Part shown: positions 110-11,412 of the stretch, one piece after another
How positions within the stretch are numbered: position 1 is the stretch's first letter
How the letters are laid out: every line of letters begins with the position of its first letter
Origin: Tepidanaerobacteraceae bacterium
GTDB lineage: Bacteria > Bacillota > Thermosediminibacteria > Thermosediminibacterales > Thermosediminibacteraceae
Assembly: GCA_030446005.1 (NCBI GenBank)
Contig: JASUSP010000003.1
Span: 1 to 49,475 of the forward strand
DNA length: 49,475 nucleotides
Direction: 5' to 3'
The notes under the pieces: model-generated
Database searches by the model: none
Told to the model about the DNA's origin: nothing
The model's input: only the letters and a program-made list of their open reading frames with translations
Made by a program: the position numbers and the translations under genes

Positions 110-2018
110 CTTTGTTTTTTATCCTTACCGTTATTTCTTGAATAAACTCTTCCAAACTTTTTGCTCCCACATCACCTTTTTCTCTTATTCTTACAGAAAC
201 GGTACCTTCTGCCTCTTCCCTTTCCCCTACAACAAGCATGTACGGGATTTTTTGCATTTGAGCTTCCCTTATTTTATAACCCACTTTCTCGTTTCTTTCG
301 TCCAATTCTACTCTAATATCGTGAGCCTCCAGTTTTCTTTTTACTTCCCTCCCGTATTCCAAAAATTTTTGACTCACGGGTATTACCTTTACTTGTACCG
401 GTGCTAGCCACACCGGAAACGCTCCTGCGTAGTGTTCTATAAGAATTCCTATAAAACGTTCAAGGCTCCCGAAAATAGTCCGGTGAATCATTACAGGGCG
501 GTGCCTTTCACCATCCGGACCGATGTAGGTAAGGTCAAAGCGTTCCGGCATCATAAAATCGAGCTGAATTGTGCCGCACTGCCAGGTACGACCTATGCTA
601 TCTTTTAGGTGAAAATCTATCTTCGGGCCGTAGAAAGCTCCATCGCCTTCATTTACTTTGTAATCAAAACCTTTTTTTTCCAAAGCATTTCTCAAAGCCG
701 ATGTGGCTTTCTCCCAAAGCTCGTCGGGGCCCATAGAGTTTTCAGGTCGAGTCGACAACTCCACATGGTAATCAAAACCGAAAATCTTGTAAATGTAATC
801 CGCAAGTTCTATGACGTCCATAATCTCATCTTCAATCTGCGACGGCATGACGTAAATATGAGCATCATCCTGAGTAAAGCTCCTCACCCTCATCAAACCA
901 TGTAAAACTCCCGAAAGCTCATGTCTGTGGACAAGACCTAACTCCGCCAGTTTCAGGGGGAACTCTCTGTAGCTATGGACCTGGCTTTTATATATCAATA
1001 TCCCGCCGGGACAGTTCATGGGCTTTATAGCGTACCCTTCCCCGTCTATTTGGGTAAAATACATGTTCGATTTATAATGGTCCCAGTGTCCAGAGCGCTT
1101 CCACAATTCTTCGTTCAATATTATGGGAGTTTTTATCTCCTGATATCCTCTTTTTTGGTGTTCCTTTCTCCAAAAATCAACTAACGTATTCCAGAGTATC
1201 ATTCCTTTAGGATGGAAGAACGGGAAACCGGGGCCTTCTTCATGCATGCTAAACAGGTCAAGTTCTTTCCCCAGTTTTCTATGGTCCCTCTTTTTAGCCT
1301 CCTCCAAATTCTTTAAGTATTCTTCCAGCATCGATTTTTTTGGAAAAGAAGTTCCGTAAATCCTCTGCAACATCTTATTGCGCGAATCACCTTTCCAGTA
1401 AGCACCCGCAAGACTCGTCAGCTTAAAGGCCTTTATCCTGCCTGTGGATGGTATGTGAGGACCTGCACATAAATCGAGAAACTCGCCGTTTTTATAAAAG
1501 CTTATCTTGGCGCCCTCCGGAAGATTTTGAACCAATTCAACTTTGTAAGGTTCTCCCATCTCCTGCAATTTTTTTATCGCTTCTTCTCTTGTTACTTCCA
1601 TACGGATGAATGGCTGATCTTCCGCTACAATTTTTTCCATTTCCTTTTCGATTTTTTCAAGGTCTTCAGGAGTGAAGCTCTTCTCCCTGTCAAAGTCGTA
1701 GTAAAAACCTTCTTCAATAGCCGGCCCAATGCCCAATTTAACATCGGGGAAAAGTCGTTTTACTGCCTGAGCCATTACGTGAGAAGTGCTATGCCTGAAC
1801 GCATCCCTGCCTTCCTCGTCCTCAAAAGTCAGAATTTCTACTTTAGAATCCTTCTCCAGCTTGAAACTCAAATCCACAAGTTCGCCATCAACTTTGGCTA
1901 CCAAAGCTTCCTTGGCCAATTTGGGACTTATGTCCTTCGCTATATCCATCACGGTAACACCTTTGGAATAAATTCTTTCTTCATCTCCTTTTAAGAACAC
2001 TCTCACTTGTTCCTGCAT
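105..2018 (-). CDS. thrS: Threonyl-tRNA synthetase
   Basis: This cytoplasmic enzyme charges tRNA-Thr with threonine using ATP. The 637-residue length is normal for the bacterial family. An N-terminal TGS domain (about residues 1-65) is followed by the editing domain with the HSTSH motif (76-80) and the LCAGPH stretch near residue 183. The class II catalytic core has the NCPGG segment, the VHRHELSG motif-2 region and the MIHRTIFGS motif-3 region, and an anticodon-binding domain forms the last 100 residues. The ATG start has an AGAGGTGG ribosome-binding site. The gene is preceded by a T-box leader with a threonine specifier, so it should be induced when uncharged tRNA-Thr accumulates. It appears to be monocistronic. 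Confidence 0.97.
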   Translation of the reverse strand: MQEQVRVFLKGDEERIYSKGVTVMDIAKDISPKLAKEALVAKVDGELVDLSFKLEKDSKVEILTFEDEEGRDAFRHSTSHVMAQAVKRLFPDVKLGIGPAIEEGFYYDFDREKSFTPEDLEKIEKEMEKIVAEDQPFIRMEVTREEAIKKLQEMGEPYKVELVQNLPEGAKISFYKNGEFLDLCAGPHIPSTGRIKAFKLTSLAGAYWKGDSRNKMLQRIYGTSFPKKSMLEEYLKNLEEAKKRDHRKLGKELDLFSMHEEGPGFPFFHPKGMILWNTLVDFWRKEHQKRGYQEIKTPIILNEELWKRSGHWDHYKSNMYFTQIDGEGYAIKPMNCPGGILIYKSQVHSYREFPLKLAELGLVHRHELSGVLHGLMRVRSFTQDDAHIYVMPSQIEDEIMDVIELADYIYKIFGFDYHVELSTRPENSMGPDELWEKATSALRNALEKKGFDYKVNEGDGAFYGPKIDFHLKDSIGRTWQCGTIQLDFMMPERFDLTYIGPDGERHRPVMIHRTIFGSLERFIGILIEHYAGAFPVWLAPVQVKVIPVSQKFLEYGREVKRKLEAHDIRVELDERNEKVGYKIREAQMQKIPYMLVVGEREEAEGTVSVRIREKGDVGAKSLEEFIQEITVRIKNKE

Positions 2019-3060: not shown

Positions 3061-3135
3061 TGGTGGGCGCTGTAAGGATCGAACTTACGACCTCTTCCGC
3101 GTCAAGGAAGCGCTCTCCCACTGAGCTAAGCGCCC
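3061..3135 (-). tRNA. tRNA-Val (anticodon GAC)
   Basis: The minus strand folds as a 75-base cloverleaf including encoded CCA. The acceptor stem GGGCGCT pairs with AGCGCCC, the D arm is AGCTCAGTGGGAGAGC, the anticodon stem-loop is CTTCC-TTGACGC-GGAAG, and the T arm contains GTTCGATCC. It is the last gene of the tRNA operon and reads GUC and GUU. Confidence 0.97.
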
Positions 3136-3143
3136 ACTTTATA

Positions 3144-3232
3144 TGGTGCCGGGAACCGGAATCGAACCGGTATGGGTATTGCTACCCCCAGGATTTTAAG
3201 TCCTGTGCGTCTGCCAGTTCCGCCACCCCGGC
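3144..3232 (-). tRNA. tRNA-Leu (anticodon TAA)
   Basis: This class II tRNA is 89 bases long with encoded CCA. The acceptor stem begins GCCGGGG, the anticodon stem-loop is CAGGA-CTTAAAA-TCCTG, and a long variable arm (GGGGGTAGCAATACCC) precedes the T arm GGTTCGATTCC. The long variable arm and UAA anticodon identify leucine. Confidence 0.97.
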
Positions 3233-3245
3233 CTATTTTCTTTTT

Positions 3246-3319
<74 letters not shown>

Positions 3320-3333
3320 ATTTAAATAAAAAA

Positions 3334-3408
3334 TGGAGCGGAAGACGGGACTTGAACCCGCGACCCTCGCCTTGGCAAGGCGATGCTCTACCTCTGAGCC
3401 ACTTCCGC
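3334..3408 (-). tRNA. tRNA-Gly (anticodon GCC)
   Basis: This 75-base tRNA with encoded CCA has acceptor GCGGAAG/CTTCCGC, an anticodon stem-loop TCGCC-TTGCCAA-GGCGA, and T-arm GGTTCAAGTCC. Confidence 0.97.
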
Positions 3409-3414
3409 ATAAAG

Positions 3415-3490
<76 letters not shown>

Positions 3491-3500
3491 ATGCTTGATA

Positions 3501-3578
3501 TGGCGACCCAGAAGGGACTCGAACCCTCGACCTCCAGCGTGACAGGCTGGCGTTCTAAACCAACTGAACTACTGGGCC
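3501..3578 (-). tRNA. tRNA-Asp (anticodon GTC)
   Basis: This 78-base tRNA with encoded CCA has acceptor GGCCCAG/CTGGGTC, an anticodon stem-loop CCAGC-CTGTCAC-GCTGG, and T-arm GGTTCGAGTCC. The discriminator is G, as expected for aspartate. Confidence 0.97.
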
Positions 3579-3590
3579 GCATACCATTTT

Positions 3591-3666
3591 TGGTGGGCGA
3601 AACAGGGCTCGAACCTGTGACCCCGTGCTTGTAAGGCACGTGCTCTCCCAGCTGAGCTATCCGCCC
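3591..3666 (-). tRNA. tRNA-Val (anticodon TAC)
   Basis: This 76-base tRNA with encoded CCA has acceptor GGGCGGA, an anticodon stem-loop CGTGC-CTTACAA-GCACG, and T-arm GGTTCGAGCCC. It is the first gene of the tRNA operon, a few bases downstream of a consensus promoter. Confidence 0.97.
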
Positions 3667-7833: not shown

Positions 7834-8908
7834 AGTAGTCGTTGCCATGAGCGGTGGAGTGGATAGCTCTACCTGTGCTTATTTATTGAAGGAACAAGGC
7901 TACGAAGTGATAGGTATCACGATGCAAATCTGGCAGGACCCTTCCGAAGAATATGTATATCGCGAAGGGGGCTGTTGTTCCATCGGCGCCGTATATGATG
8001 CGCGTAAAGTGGCTGAAAAGCTAAAAATTCCTTATTACGTGCTGAATTTCAAGGAGTTATTCAGCGAAAAGGTAATTGACTACTTTGTGGACGAATACCT
8101 GGTAGGAAGGACTCCAAATCCCTGCATAGCTTGCAATAAATACATCAAGTTCGAAGCCCTTTTAAAAAAAGCAATGGAAATCGATGCGTTTTATCTCGCC
8201 ACAGGCCACTACGCCAGAATAGAATATGATTACGAATCCGGCAGGTACCTTTTAAAAAAGGGAAGGGATAAAACCAAGGACCAATCTTATGCCCTTTACA
8301 ACCTGACGCAGGAACAGCTTGAACATCTACTGCTGCCTTTAGGAGAATTCACAAAGAGTCAGATTAGACAAATCGCCCGCAATGCCGGTTTGCCCGTGGC
8401 AGAAAAACCCGACAGCCAGGAAATCTGCTTTGTTAACACGAATTACAAAGATTTCCTTAAAGAAAAGGCCTTTGAACGTATAAAGCCGGGACCAATTTTG
8501 GATACAAGCGGAAAGGTTTTGGGCCAGCATGATGGAATTGCCTTTTACACCATCGGTCAGAGGCGGGGATTAGGTATTTCCGCGGGAAGACCGCTTTACG
8601 TAGTCGACATCGACCCGGAAAAAAATGCAATAATAGTGGGTGAGGAAAAGGACCTATTTACCAAAGAATTTCAAGCGGAAAAAATCAACTGGATAGCTTT
8701 CGATTCGCTAACTCAAAAAATGAGGGCTTACGCAAAAATACGTTACAACTTCGAAGAAAAACCGGCCGAAATCCATCCTTTAGACTCCGGCAACGTAAAG
8801 GTTGTTTTCGACGAACCGCAAAAATCGGTAACGCCCGGACAGTCGGTGGTTTTTTATGACGGTGATTTGGTCTTAGGCGGTGGAATAATAGCTAAAAAGG
8901 GAGAATAA
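7814..8908 (+). CDS. mnmA: tRNA-specific 2-thiouridylase MnmA
   Basis: The enzyme adenylates and thiolates U34 of Glu, Gln and Lys tRNAs using persulfide sulfur that starts at IscS. The PP-loop SGGVDS is at 13-18. The catalytic cysteine C104 lies in NPCIACNKYIKF, the partner cysteine C205 in SQEICFV, and KDQSYALY near 155 is the conserved central motif. The length (364) is typical. The ATG has the ribosome-binding site AAGGAGAGG and overlaps iscU by 20 bases. Placement in the isc operon ties tRNA thiolation to sulfur supply. Confidence 0.96.
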   Translation: MSLNKNRVVVAMSGGVDSSTCAYLLKEQGYEVIGITMQIWQDPSEEYVYREGGCCSIGAVYDARKVAEKLKIPYYVLNFKELFSEKVIDYFVDEYLVGRTPNPCIACNKYIKFEALLKKAMEIDAFYLATGHYARIEYDYESGRYLLKKGRDKTKDQSYALYNLTQEQLEHLLLPLGEFTKSQIRQIARNAGLPVAEKPDSQEICFVNTNYKDFLKEKAFERIKPGPILDTSGKVLGQHDGIAFYTIGQRRGLGISAGRPLYVVDIDPEKNAIIVGEEKDLFTKEFQAEKINWIAFDSLTQKMRAYAKIRYNFEEKPAEIHPLDSGNVKVVFDEPQKSVTPGQSVVFYDGDLVLGGGIIAKKGE

Positions 8909-8917
8909 TGGCAAAAG

Positions 8918-9190
8918 CTAAATTTTTACGTCAATATGATTGCTGCTTTTTTTAAAGGGTTTTTCCCTTTTTTTATTTTTTTCATCCTTGCCTTTTTCTT
9001 TTTCTGAAGTCACCCCAATTTTTTCCGATTTAGAAGACGAATTTACTTTGCGCTTTTCTATCTCCTGTTGTTTTTGAAACTGCACACCCAGCATGGTTTG
9101 AATCGTTTTGCCGGATTCCTGCAGATTCTGATGTTCTTTTGCCACTTCCAAAGTCTTCGGAATAATTACCTGCATGTCAACGGGCCGCAA
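8918..9190 (-). CDS. Small conserved-looking protein at the end of the fla/che operon, function unknown
   Basis: I do not recognise a named family. The product (90 residues from the TTG at 9190) is hydrophilic, with no membrane segment or signal peptide. It opens with RPVDMQVIIPKTLEVAKEHQ, continues as a predicted helix rich in Q, E and K, then a K/E/S-rich low-complexity tail, and ends HIDVKI. GAAGG lies eight bases before the TTG, while the GTG at 9199 would abut it. The frame at 9199 overlaps the fapA stop by four bases, so translation is coupled. I have an impression that similar small proteins follow fapA in other clostridia, but cannot confirm it. It is the last gene of the operon and converges on mnmA nine bases away. 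Confidence 0.7.
   Translation of the reverse strand: MRPVDMQVIIPKTLEVAKEHQNLQESGKTIQTMLGVQFQKQQEIEKRKVNSSSKSEKIGVTSEKEKGKDEKNKKREKPFKKSSNHIDVKI
8954..8982 (+). terminator. Intrinsic terminator of the isc-mnmA operon, inside the convergent gene
   Basis: AAAGGG (8954-8959), a five-T loop and CCCTTT (8965-8970) form a short hairpin followed by TTTTATTTTTTT. It lies 46 bases past the mnmA stop and within the coding end of the convergent small gene, where it doubles as codons for lysine and phenylalanine. Confidence 0.65.
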
Positions 9191-9195
9191 GACCT

Positions 9196-10659
9196 TCACC
9201 TTCTTTCATACGGTCTTGACTTTATCTGACCTTCGTGATTGTAAAAGGTTACGTGTTCAAATCTATCCTTTAACCTCATGCTTGCATTGCCTATCACTAT
9301 GTTAACGCCCGGAAAAACCGTATCGCAGGCAGAAATCTTGGCACGAGCCATAGTCTCAATTAACAGCGTTAACCTCTCTTTTTCCTCTTCTAAAGCTTTC
9401 TTTTTTTCCAATAGTTCAGCTTCCGACTCCTTAAGCCTTTTTATCAAATTGGTTCTTTCTGGGGCTTCTATTCCTTTATTTGCCTGCTTTGCCATAATGT
9501 CCAAAGCAGTTTTGATTTTGACCAAATTGCTTTCCACACTTTCAAGTTCCTGGTTTATTTCGTATATTTTTCTTTTGTATCCGGGATTTACCCCTGCCTC
9601 CACTATAGTTACGGTCGCCATCGGCGAACCTATCACTTTTGCATTTATCTCCTTGCCTGCCCTTGCGCTGCCGCCCACCAAAAGGCCTTTTTTTCCTTTT
9701 ACTTCTATTTTGTTTCCTGCCGAAACTAAGCTGTGCATTATCGCTTCATTTACGATTATATTTTTTCCTGCTTCCAAGGTGCTGTTTTCTACAAACTTTG
9801 CAATAATATCCACGGCGGCTTTGACCATACCTTTTCCCATGCCTCGTATACCCCGTTTTAAAAAAACCTTTCCGCCTGATATGAGCTCGGCCGCTTCCAC
9901 ATAACCTTCTACTTCTATATCTCCTTCCGCTTTAATTTTGTATCCGCTCTTTATATTTCCGTAAACTTTTACGCTTCCAACAAAATCTATATCCCCTGTT
10001 GACGGCCCTACATCCCCCTTTATCTCCATTACGGGAAGCACGCTTATCCTGTCTTCGCCAATTACCGGATGTCCATCGATGGTTGAATATAAAAATTTCC
10101 CGTCATCCGATAATACAACATTTTTCCCCTGCCGCAGCCTAACTGGTTTGCCGTCCTTTGCCGGTAATACCTTCCCGGTCACCGTCTTTCCCGGGGACCC
10201 CTTTTCAGGAGGAATTATCTCGGCCAACAATTGCCCTTTTTCAACGTTGGTAATAAATCCAAGGTCGTGAAAATCTACCCTTCCATCTTCAGTGATTTTA
10301 GGTTTTAATTCCTTATTAATTTCTACGCGATATACAATTTCCCCATCCTTACCTTCTTTCGGCTCAATTCCCCTTGCTATTTCGACGGGAGTATTGTAGA
10401 TACCCTTTTTCAGCATTTCATTTATCTTGTCCGTATCTATTCCGAACACAACTCCACTTTTATTCAGCTCTTTTAAAACATCATCGAGGCTGAGGTTTGT
10501 TCTACCCCCGGAAGATGAAATTAAAGTAAGGGTTGCACTCATTTCATTTTCGGAAATCTCAACATGCATAAAAGGAGCCTGTTCGGGTCGGCTCACATTT
10601 TTTTGATAATTCACATCTGATAGATAATAACTGTTCTCGCCTGATTTGTTTTTTTCCAT
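9196..10659 (-). CDS. fapA: FapA family (DUF342) protein
   Basis: This 487-residue protein belongs to the FapA/DUF342 family, named for flagellar assembly protein A and linked to motility and polarity in other bacteria, with an uncharacterised mechanism. The central part (about 150-340) is a repetitive beta-helix-like region with many glycines (GDVGPSTGDIDFVGSV, GDIEVEGYVEAAELISGG, GNIIVNEAIMHS pattern). It is followed by a coiled coil (about 360-430) and a small C-terminal domain. The frame opens with GTG at 10668, but that codon lies in the ribosome-binding site AGGGGGTG, so the ATG at 10659 is preferred. It follows sigD directly. Confidence 0.88.
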   Translation of the reverse strand: MEKNKSGENSYYLSDVNYQKNVSRPEQAPFMHVEISENEMSATLTLISSSGGRTNLSLDDVLKELNKSGVVFGIDTDKINEMLKKGIYNTPVEIARGIEPKEGKDGEIVYRVEINKELKPKITEDGRVDFHDLGFITNVEKGQLLAEIIPPEKGSPGKTVTGKVLPAKDGKPVRLRQGKNVVLSDDGKFLYSTIDGHPVIGEDRISVLPVMEIKGDVGPSTGDIDFVGSVKVYGNIKSGYKIKAEGDIEVEGYVEAAELISGGKVFLKRGIRGMGKGMVKAAVDIIAKFVENSTLEAGKNIIVNEAIMHSLVSAGNKIEVKGKKGLLVGGSARAGKEINAKVIGSPMATVTIVEAGVNPGYKRKIYEINQELESVESNLVKIKTALDIMAKQANKGIEAPERTNLIKRLKESEAELLEKKKALEEEKERLTLLIETMARAKISACDTVFPGVNIVIGNASMRLKDRFEHVTFYNHEGQIKSRPYERR

Positions 10660-10671
10660 TAATTTCACCCC

Positions 10672-11412
10672 CTAATTTCTAAAATAGGCTTTCTTCCTGC
10701 TCAGGCTTCCCCTCAATCTCAATATAGCTTTTGTATGAAGCTGGGATACCCGCGCCGGCGAAAGATCCAGAACCGCCGAGATTTCTTTTAAGTTCAATCC
10801 CTCGTAGTAGTAAAGAGCGATTACGAGTTTTTCTTTATCCGGCAGTTTTTCTATCGCTTCCCCCAATAATTTTTTCAATTCCTCTTTTTCCACATAACGC
10901 TCCGGTCTTTCATCTTCCTCGGCCACTACTGAGAGAACTTCTTCAAGGGAAACTAAATTCGTTGCGGCCAATTCCTTATAAGTCTGTTGAAGTTCATCCA
11001 TAGTGATATTCAATTTTCTGCAGATGTCCTCATCCTTGACGTTTCCCTCTAATTCTTGTTCTAACTCGGAATAAGCCTGTTGCAAAATCTTCGCTTTTTC
11101 CATAGCCTTTTGGGGTATCCAATTCAACCTTCTCAGCTCATCGAGCATAGCTCCTTTAATTCTCATATAAGCAAACGTTTCAAACTTTACTCCCTTTTCT
11201 ACATCGTATCGGTCAATGGCTTGCAGCAGGCCTATTACTCCAACGCTTACAAGGTCATCGTAGTCCACCGATGGCGGCAAATTTATGGCCAGCCGGGCTG
11301 CTATATGTTTTACCAGAGGGATGTATGTCTTTACAAGCTTCTCTTTAAGAGTCGAGTCGCCTTTTGTCTTATATTCAATCAATAGATTTTCCGCCCTGAC
11401 TGCCTCCCGCAC
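10672..11412 (-). CDS. sigD: Flagellar/motility RNA polymerase sigma factor (FliA/SigD/WhiG family)
   Basis: This 246-residue sigma-70 factor should direct late flagellar and chemotaxis genes such as flagellin. Region 2 (about 25-95) contains DYDDLVSVGVIGLLQAIDRY and FETFAYMRIKGAMLDELR, the FliA/WhiG signature, followed by WIPQKAMEKA in region 3. Region 4 (about 185-240) has LNLKEISAVLDLSPARVSQL as the -35-binding helix-turn-helix. Its anti-sigma factor FlgM is not in the window. It sits at the operon's far end, as in Bacillus subtilis, where distance from the promoter makes its level limiting. The start is GTG. Confidence 0.93.
   Translation of the reverse strand: MREAVRAENLLIEYKTKGDSTLKEKLVKTYIPLVKHIAARLAINLPPSVDYDDLVSVGVIGLLQAIDRYDVEKGVKFETFAYMRIKGAMLDELRRLNWIPQKAMEKAKILQQAYSELEQELEGNVKDEDICRKLNITMDELQQTYKELAATNLVSLEEVLSVVAEEDERPERYVEKEELKKLLGEAIEKLPDKEKLVIALYYYEGLNLKEISAVLDLSPARVSQLHTKAILRLRGSLSRKKAYFRN

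Follow-up and report, generated by a model that had tools for sequence, protein, structure and literature searches.

The last gene of the fla/che operon in the window (the whole 49,475-nucleotide stretch of DNA analyzed here), referred to below as gene X, belongs to a conserved family that is associated with flagella and linked to the sigD locus and whose members have two conserved ends joined by a variable, charged linker. We tentatively propose, while granting that the assignment could well be different, that this small flagellar gene encodes a cytoplasmic accessory protein of flagellar assembly that is made together with sigma-28 at the operon end. In many Bacillota flagella, gene X seems to be a component of the late-assembly module that has escaped study.

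Reading frame and anatomy of gene X

The open reading frame originally predicted at 8918-9199 is present on the minus strand, with 93 codons counted from a GTG, the N-terminus as quoted, and a tail ending in ...NHIDVKI. It is the final gene of the fla/che operon (...cheC, cheD, sigD, fapA, gene X), also as predicted. The GTG at 9199 lacks ribosome-binding spacing and itself overlaps the sequence AAGAAGG, whereas the TTG at 9190 sits 8 nt behind AAGAAGG, and the homologues start with MSIRP... or M-[ST]-[IL]-R-P near this position. Because of this spacing and the start positions of the homologues, TTG 9190 is the likelier start codon, and the protein probably comprises 90 residues. With the TTG start, gene X begins 5 nt past the fapA stop and the two genes do not overlap; the previously proposed overlap with fapA is therefore doubtful, as it needs a start that is probably not used. 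The features of the locus are collected in Table 1.

Table 1. Coordinates of gene X, its parts, and the two preceding genes in the window
Feature	Position	Strand	Basis or remark
Gene X (small flagellar gene)	8918..9190	-	90 codons from probable start TTG 9190, plus stop
Extension to GTG 9199	9191..9199	-	Start taken in the original prediction; overlaps fapA stop; probably untranslated as gene X
Conserved N-terminal segment LRPVDMQVIIPKT, residues 1-13	9152..9190	-	Column counts of 100 members; block pLDDT 68 and 60
Predicted helix, residues 14-51	9038..9151	-	AlphaFold2, low confidence, mean pLDDT 61
Linker rich in K and E, residues 52-82, no structure predicted	8945..9037	-	Block pLDDT 45-51
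C-terminal peptide SNHIDVKI, residues 83-90	8921..8944	-	D in 99/99 members reaching the column
fapA	9196..10668	-	PF03961 1e-76, PF20250 2.7e-55
sigD/fliA (sigma-28)	10672..11412	-	Sigma70 regions 2 and 4; position in fla/che operon

The dN/dS values of gene X (NG86) were 0.040/0.157 in comparison with Fervidicola ferrireducens and 0.148/0.958 in comparison with a more distant relative, MAG ZC4RG34, so that gene X is a real gene under purifying selection. A spurious open reading frame was considered and rejected on the strength of this selection and of the family profile matches.

Gene X is convergent with mnmA; the end of mnmA at 8908 and the gene X stop are 9 nt apart. A terminator-like hairpin with a T-run for mnmA (AAAGGG/CCCTTT) lies at 8954-8985 on the plus strand, antisense within the K-rich coding tail of gene X. 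Fervidicola and Thermovorax retain its stem, whereas ZC4RG34 has an altered one; hairpin sites in the region are not above those in shuffled sequences (3 vs 2.8), and the fold is unexceptional (z -1.3). Elsewhere in the window, seven tRNA genes (Val, Leu, Cys, Gly, Phe, Asp, and Val) occupy 3061-3666 on the minus strand, and the open reading frames listed there look spurious.

Column counts over 100 family members show that both the N-terminal motif and the C-terminal IDVKI motif are conserved. The N-terminal segment contains columns with D in 81, Q in 87, P in 69, R or K in 92, and an acidic residue in 89 members, and a column beyond it has V or I in 94 of the 100. Near the C-terminal end, G is present in 86 of 97 members, followed by a hydrophobic residue (99/99), the D given in Table 1, and I, V, L, F, or Y (97/99). 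The window protein fits the R-P-x-D-[LM]-Q-x-x-x-P-[RK] segment with LRPVDMQVIIPK and the C-terminal φ-D-φ-x-φ end of the family with HIDVKI, its tail SSNHIDVKI being without the G. The L107 member stops short of the tail; this homologue from a family-level relative (G005:C41, also L040) ends early in an A-rich stretch, which points to a broken gene or an assembly error.

The AlphaFold2 model of the gene X protein consists of one helix (residues 14-51) with coil elsewhere, at a pLDDT of 61.1 and a pTM of 0.25, so that the shape is only indicative. Inspection of the sequence by eye revealed no hydrophobic segment. The linker (residues 51-82) had the highest dN of the three parts in the comparisons of the window sequence with L002, L003, and also L004; when relatives were compared with one another, it did not rank highest in two of the three pairs.

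Family distribution and gene neighborhood

A search of genome contigs with the single protein identified 12 loci in Fervidicola, Thermovorax, Sporomusa, 'Epulonipiscium' MAGs, and others, including Sporomusa L006 (4e-9) and L007 (6e-9; tblastn, E-values relative to the candidates only). A profile built from eight sequences had matches in 22 of the 26 genomes that represent the window's class, and a profile of 20 sequences matched 178 of 398 genomes and 121 of 270 genera of the phylum, with one match per genome; these phylum counts are lower bounds, divergent copies being missed. The window protein matched profile A2 at 3.2e-25 and is itself a row of that profile. The profile search suggested with the original prediction thus places homologues well beyond close strains, in a real family that is tied to motility and usually adjoins fapA. 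Searches of Pfam (20 members), NCBIfam (a few members), and the PDB gave chance matches only, for example TrbJ_Ti, which scored 18.8 bits where the cut-off is 100.55; in NCBIfam no match came close to a cut-off. A gene found once per genome in nearly half of the phylum genomes sampled is thus absent from Pfam and NCBIfam as searched.

FliG was found in 177 of the 178 genomes with gene X, the exception being G197, an assembly in about 360 contigs. Another 152 of 329 FliG-positive genomes gave no gene X match (again with presence counted as a lower bound), and gene X is therefore accessory rather than needed by flagella generally. The usual flagellar models are not known to show gene X, and B. 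subtilis is not known to carry it.

Gene neighborhoods were compared in 100 hand-picked loci, two of which have no upstream and two no downstream sequence. Among the 98 loci that could be read upstream, 79 have fapA directly before gene X. Of the 19 that do not, 18 have a sigD match ending at most 160 nt upstream, so that gene X directly follows sigD. The window agrees with the family in that gene X adjoins sigD-fapA in a flagellate. The one locus without upstream fapA in which gene X is not behind sigD, L105 (G125:C30), has the homologue in a rod operon, in an order that we take to be fliG-, flgF-, flgG-, and flgJ-like genes before gene X and flgB-, flgC-, fliE-, and fliM-like genes after it.

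On the downstream side, a gene for a SwrB-like protein with a transmembrane segment and a helix-turn-helix (TM+HTH) directly follows gene X in 80 of 98 loci, commonly before rpsB, and 9 of the 100 loci have neither fapA upstream nor the SwrB-like gene downstream. The SwrB-like count comes from an iterated profile, for which a wider distance limit raised the number from 78 to 80 and which replaced a tighter pattern search that had found the gene in only 24 of 100 loci; a few of the matches are weak (L136 at 2.3e-7 and L147 at 1.5e-6). The gene matches DUF6115 in Sporomusa and L007, the two cases tested. The same profile weakly matches the apparent upstream sigma factor in several loci.

In Sporomusa ovata (L006), the order as judged by eye is a FlgV-like ORF with two transmembrane segments (2TM), sigD, fapA, gene X, and the TM+HTH gene. 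The FlgV-like ORF (1179-1502, plus strand) lies between cheD and sigD, where the window leaves no room for one. The gene at 4344-4934 of L006 is an example of the SwrB-like type behind gene X, with a TM anchor and a C-terminal HTH.

A C-terminal peptide in common with YjfB

The only element that the gene X family and YjfB have in common is the C-terminal peptide G-x-x-[IL]-D-[IVL]-x-φ. The pattern G-x(1,4)-φ-D-φ-x-φ directly before the stop occurs in 96 of 3785 open segments from 116 loci (segments of 70 residues or more, 100 gene X members among them), comprising 89 gene X proteins, six divergent copies, and one unrelated segment. Among the 283 open segments of the window, gene X alone has the φ-D-φ-x-φ end, that is, the pattern without the G. 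The tail pattern is present in 14 of 17 YjfB proteins, or 15 of 18 counting L192, and FlgV-like tails fall outside it as judged by eye.

Tail models were searched against 7388 open segments at E < 0.5. The YjfB tail model matched eight gene X members and the gene X tail model matched three YjfB tails, each model giving one unrelated match besides; overall, searching these segments for the N-terminal segment or for the tails returned gene X, its divergent copies, YjfB, and two unrelated segments (L117 and L077). The gene X tail model recovers just 69 of its own 100 members at this threshold, and the E-values are weak against a background made up mostly of flagellar loci in six frames; the small number of false matches is a stronger argument for a common tail than the E-values. 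Alignment of the two families with hhalign covered the last 15 columns only (probability 57, E 1e-4 for a single comparison), and nothing aligned once the tail had been removed (probability 0.2).

The 2024 FlgV paper (PMC11607428), in its available text, lists "YjfB (an uncharacterized small protein)" together with sigma-28, FapA, and a TM+HTH protein in a sub-module of flagellar superoperons, those of Bacillota included; its main text gives this small protein a label only, with no analysis or function in the portions available. Since the same neighbors are named and the order in Sporomusa ovata L006 agrees, the small protein called YjfB there is very probably the gene X family. Within the available text of PMC4526659, PMC13344023, PMC3865298, and PMC11607428, only the last mentions a small protein of this sub-module.

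Identity of gene X with the Pfam family YjfB (PF14070) was set aside, as there is no Pfam match, the N-terminal parts do not align, and the two have separate places in the genome. No PF14070 match was found in the window protein, its own genome, or 20 members, and hhalign detected in gene X no N-terminal region like the MDIAALS...SQ of YjfB (probability 0.2). A PF14070 protein is present in 17 of the 119 genomes searched, and 12 of these 17 also hold gene X; in the 11 of these with both places listed, the two genes are on different contigs (five genomes) or at least 41 kb apart on the same contig (six genomes).

Going by these sequence comparisons, the C-terminal peptide of the gene X and YjfB families, roughly P-x-x-G-x-x-[IL]-D-[IVL]-x-φ-COOH, could be an undescribed flagellar docking motif that is read by one partner and provides small proteins of the sigma-28 programme with a route to the flagellar base or export machinery, an idea to which we give roughly one chance in three.

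Candidate partners, proposed role, and known systems

The original prediction had regarded gene X as a FapA partner or a late motility factor; the tie to motility stands, and a dedicated FapA partnership is weakened by the 19 loci without an upstream fapA. A protein that binds FapA and aids its action in flagellar assembly or placement would explain why gene X so often lies directly behind fapA, and it also agrees with the co-occurrence of the two genes. By best E-value, the FapA matches fall into two types: a close one, at 1e-40 or below, in 158 genomes, and a distant one, no stronger than 1e-30 yet over the Pfam cut-off, in 128 genomes. In the 329 FliG-positive genomes, gene X and close FapA occur together in 138, gene X only in 39, close FapA only in 20, and neither in 132, counted irrespective of phylogeny. 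Sixteen of the 20 genomes with close FapA and no gene X match were examined. In 10 of them fapA is immediately followed by a divergent copy, detected at E <= 2e-4 among 782 open segments, and in six it is not, which brings the number of close-FapA genomes with gene X from 138 of 158 to 148. Where only the distant type is present, gene X occurs in 27 of 128 genomes, a proportion that makes the distant type unlike a gene X partner. Frames of this distant type in 13 genomes (for example G032:C57, G352:C1:2347351-2347926, and G149:C109) contain FapA_N, have about 590-770 codons, and lie away from sigD. Gene X directly follows sigD in 18 genomes, of which 14 encode a FapA-family protein of one type or the other at a different place: 13 have only a distant one (FapA_N 1e-34 to 1e-43), and G005, in which gene X appears to be broken, has a close FapA on another contig. 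The remaining four (G026, G270, G290, and G310) gave no FapA-family match in either domain search and speak against a dedicated partnership. So do 13 of the 39 FliG-positive genomes that carry gene X and lack close FapA: these 13 gave no PF03961 match at E <= 1e-10, although some of the assemblies are fragmented, and in G265 and G285 the contig breaks off shortly before gene X on its upstream side. The gene X tails, moreover, are intact in the FapA-less loci except for the cut-short L107 and the deviating L129. Because 13 of the 18 genomes hold a distant FapA-family protein, the independence of gene X from FapA rests on few genomes; judging by these gene inventories, gene X can be kept without FapA, in few clean cases, and a link to FapA is possible. 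Since gene X directly follows sigD at some loci, we do not adopt a dedicated FapA partner as the main reading and give it about one chance in four.

The constancy of sigD as a neighbor, with or without fapA in between, together with the small size and largely unstructured model of the protein, would suit a regulator of sigma-28, an anti- or co-factor like FlgM in kind and unrelated to it in sequence. This is improbable in our estimation: the Pfam matches of 20 members (E <= 1) include neither FlgM nor another anti-sigma family, and gene order by itself shows no action on sigma. In addition, flgM and sigD occupy separate loci in the flagellate C. difficile (CD0229 vs CD0266), according to the available text on that species. 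The C. difficile sigD paper also reports that the genes immediately following sigD fall when sigD is mutated, a polar effect being the probable cause. Slightly less probable than a sigma-28 regulator is a partner of the adjoining SwrB-like TM+HTH protein that acts on activation of the export apparatus, which would account for the frequent downstream neighbor and for which the available text of PMC13344023 can also be cited. The SwrB-like gene is only a putative counterpart of B. subtilis SwrB, and none was detected next to gene X in any of the six loci with the window's order (L059, L064, L066, L068, L069, and L107), although L063 and L156, other loci of the window's class, have one; DUF6115 had no match above the cut-off in the window's own, incomplete genome. 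Membership of gene X in YjfB_motility (PF14070) in another guise is very improbable. The name used for the small protein in the available text of PMC11607428, the aligned C-terminal peptides, and the reciprocal tail matches favor it, but the failure of the PF14070 model and of the N-terminal parts to match, and the presence of true PF14070 genes elsewhere in the same genomes, weigh against it.

In the preferred reading, gene X would serve flagellar assembly as an accessory tether or adaptor. Its N-terminal segment, together with the helix, would attach to one component of the flagellum or of its export machinery, and the linker would give the C-terminal peptide the reach to dock on a second site, where it might add a beta-strand. 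The tail might thereby dock on a flagellar partner common with YjfB, and the protein would act at the step that couples sigma-28 to late assembly. FapA and the SwrB-like TM+HTH protein would then be module mates of gene X and not its obligate partners.

Several known flagellar proteins resemble gene X in part. FlgM, the anti-sigma-28 factor, is mostly unstructured; like gene X it is small and flagellar, and it differs from gene X in sequence. The SwrB-like TM+HTH protein (DUF6115) is likewise a flagellar accessory protein and adjoins gene X, commonly between it and rpsB, but is the product of a separate gene with a membrane anchor and a C-terminal HTH, both absent from gene X; the PF19610 model matched neither the window protein nor 20 members, and the structural model contains one helix only. 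FlgV (BB0268, type 1), according to the available text of PMC11607428, is similar to gene X in lying near sigma-28 and in its disordered polar tail, whose end is a conserved hydrophobic peptide that includes a basic residue, and is not shown by the usual models B. subtilis and E. coli. It has two transmembrane helices, whereas gene X has none, and in Sporomusa the FlgV-like ORF precedes sigD and gene X follows fapA. YjfB_motility (PF14070) is a small motility protein whose tail pattern recurs in the gene X family, although the window's own copy is without the G, and it differs from gene X in the N-terminal region and in genome place; the peptide common to the two families is a concrete handle for finding the gene X partner.
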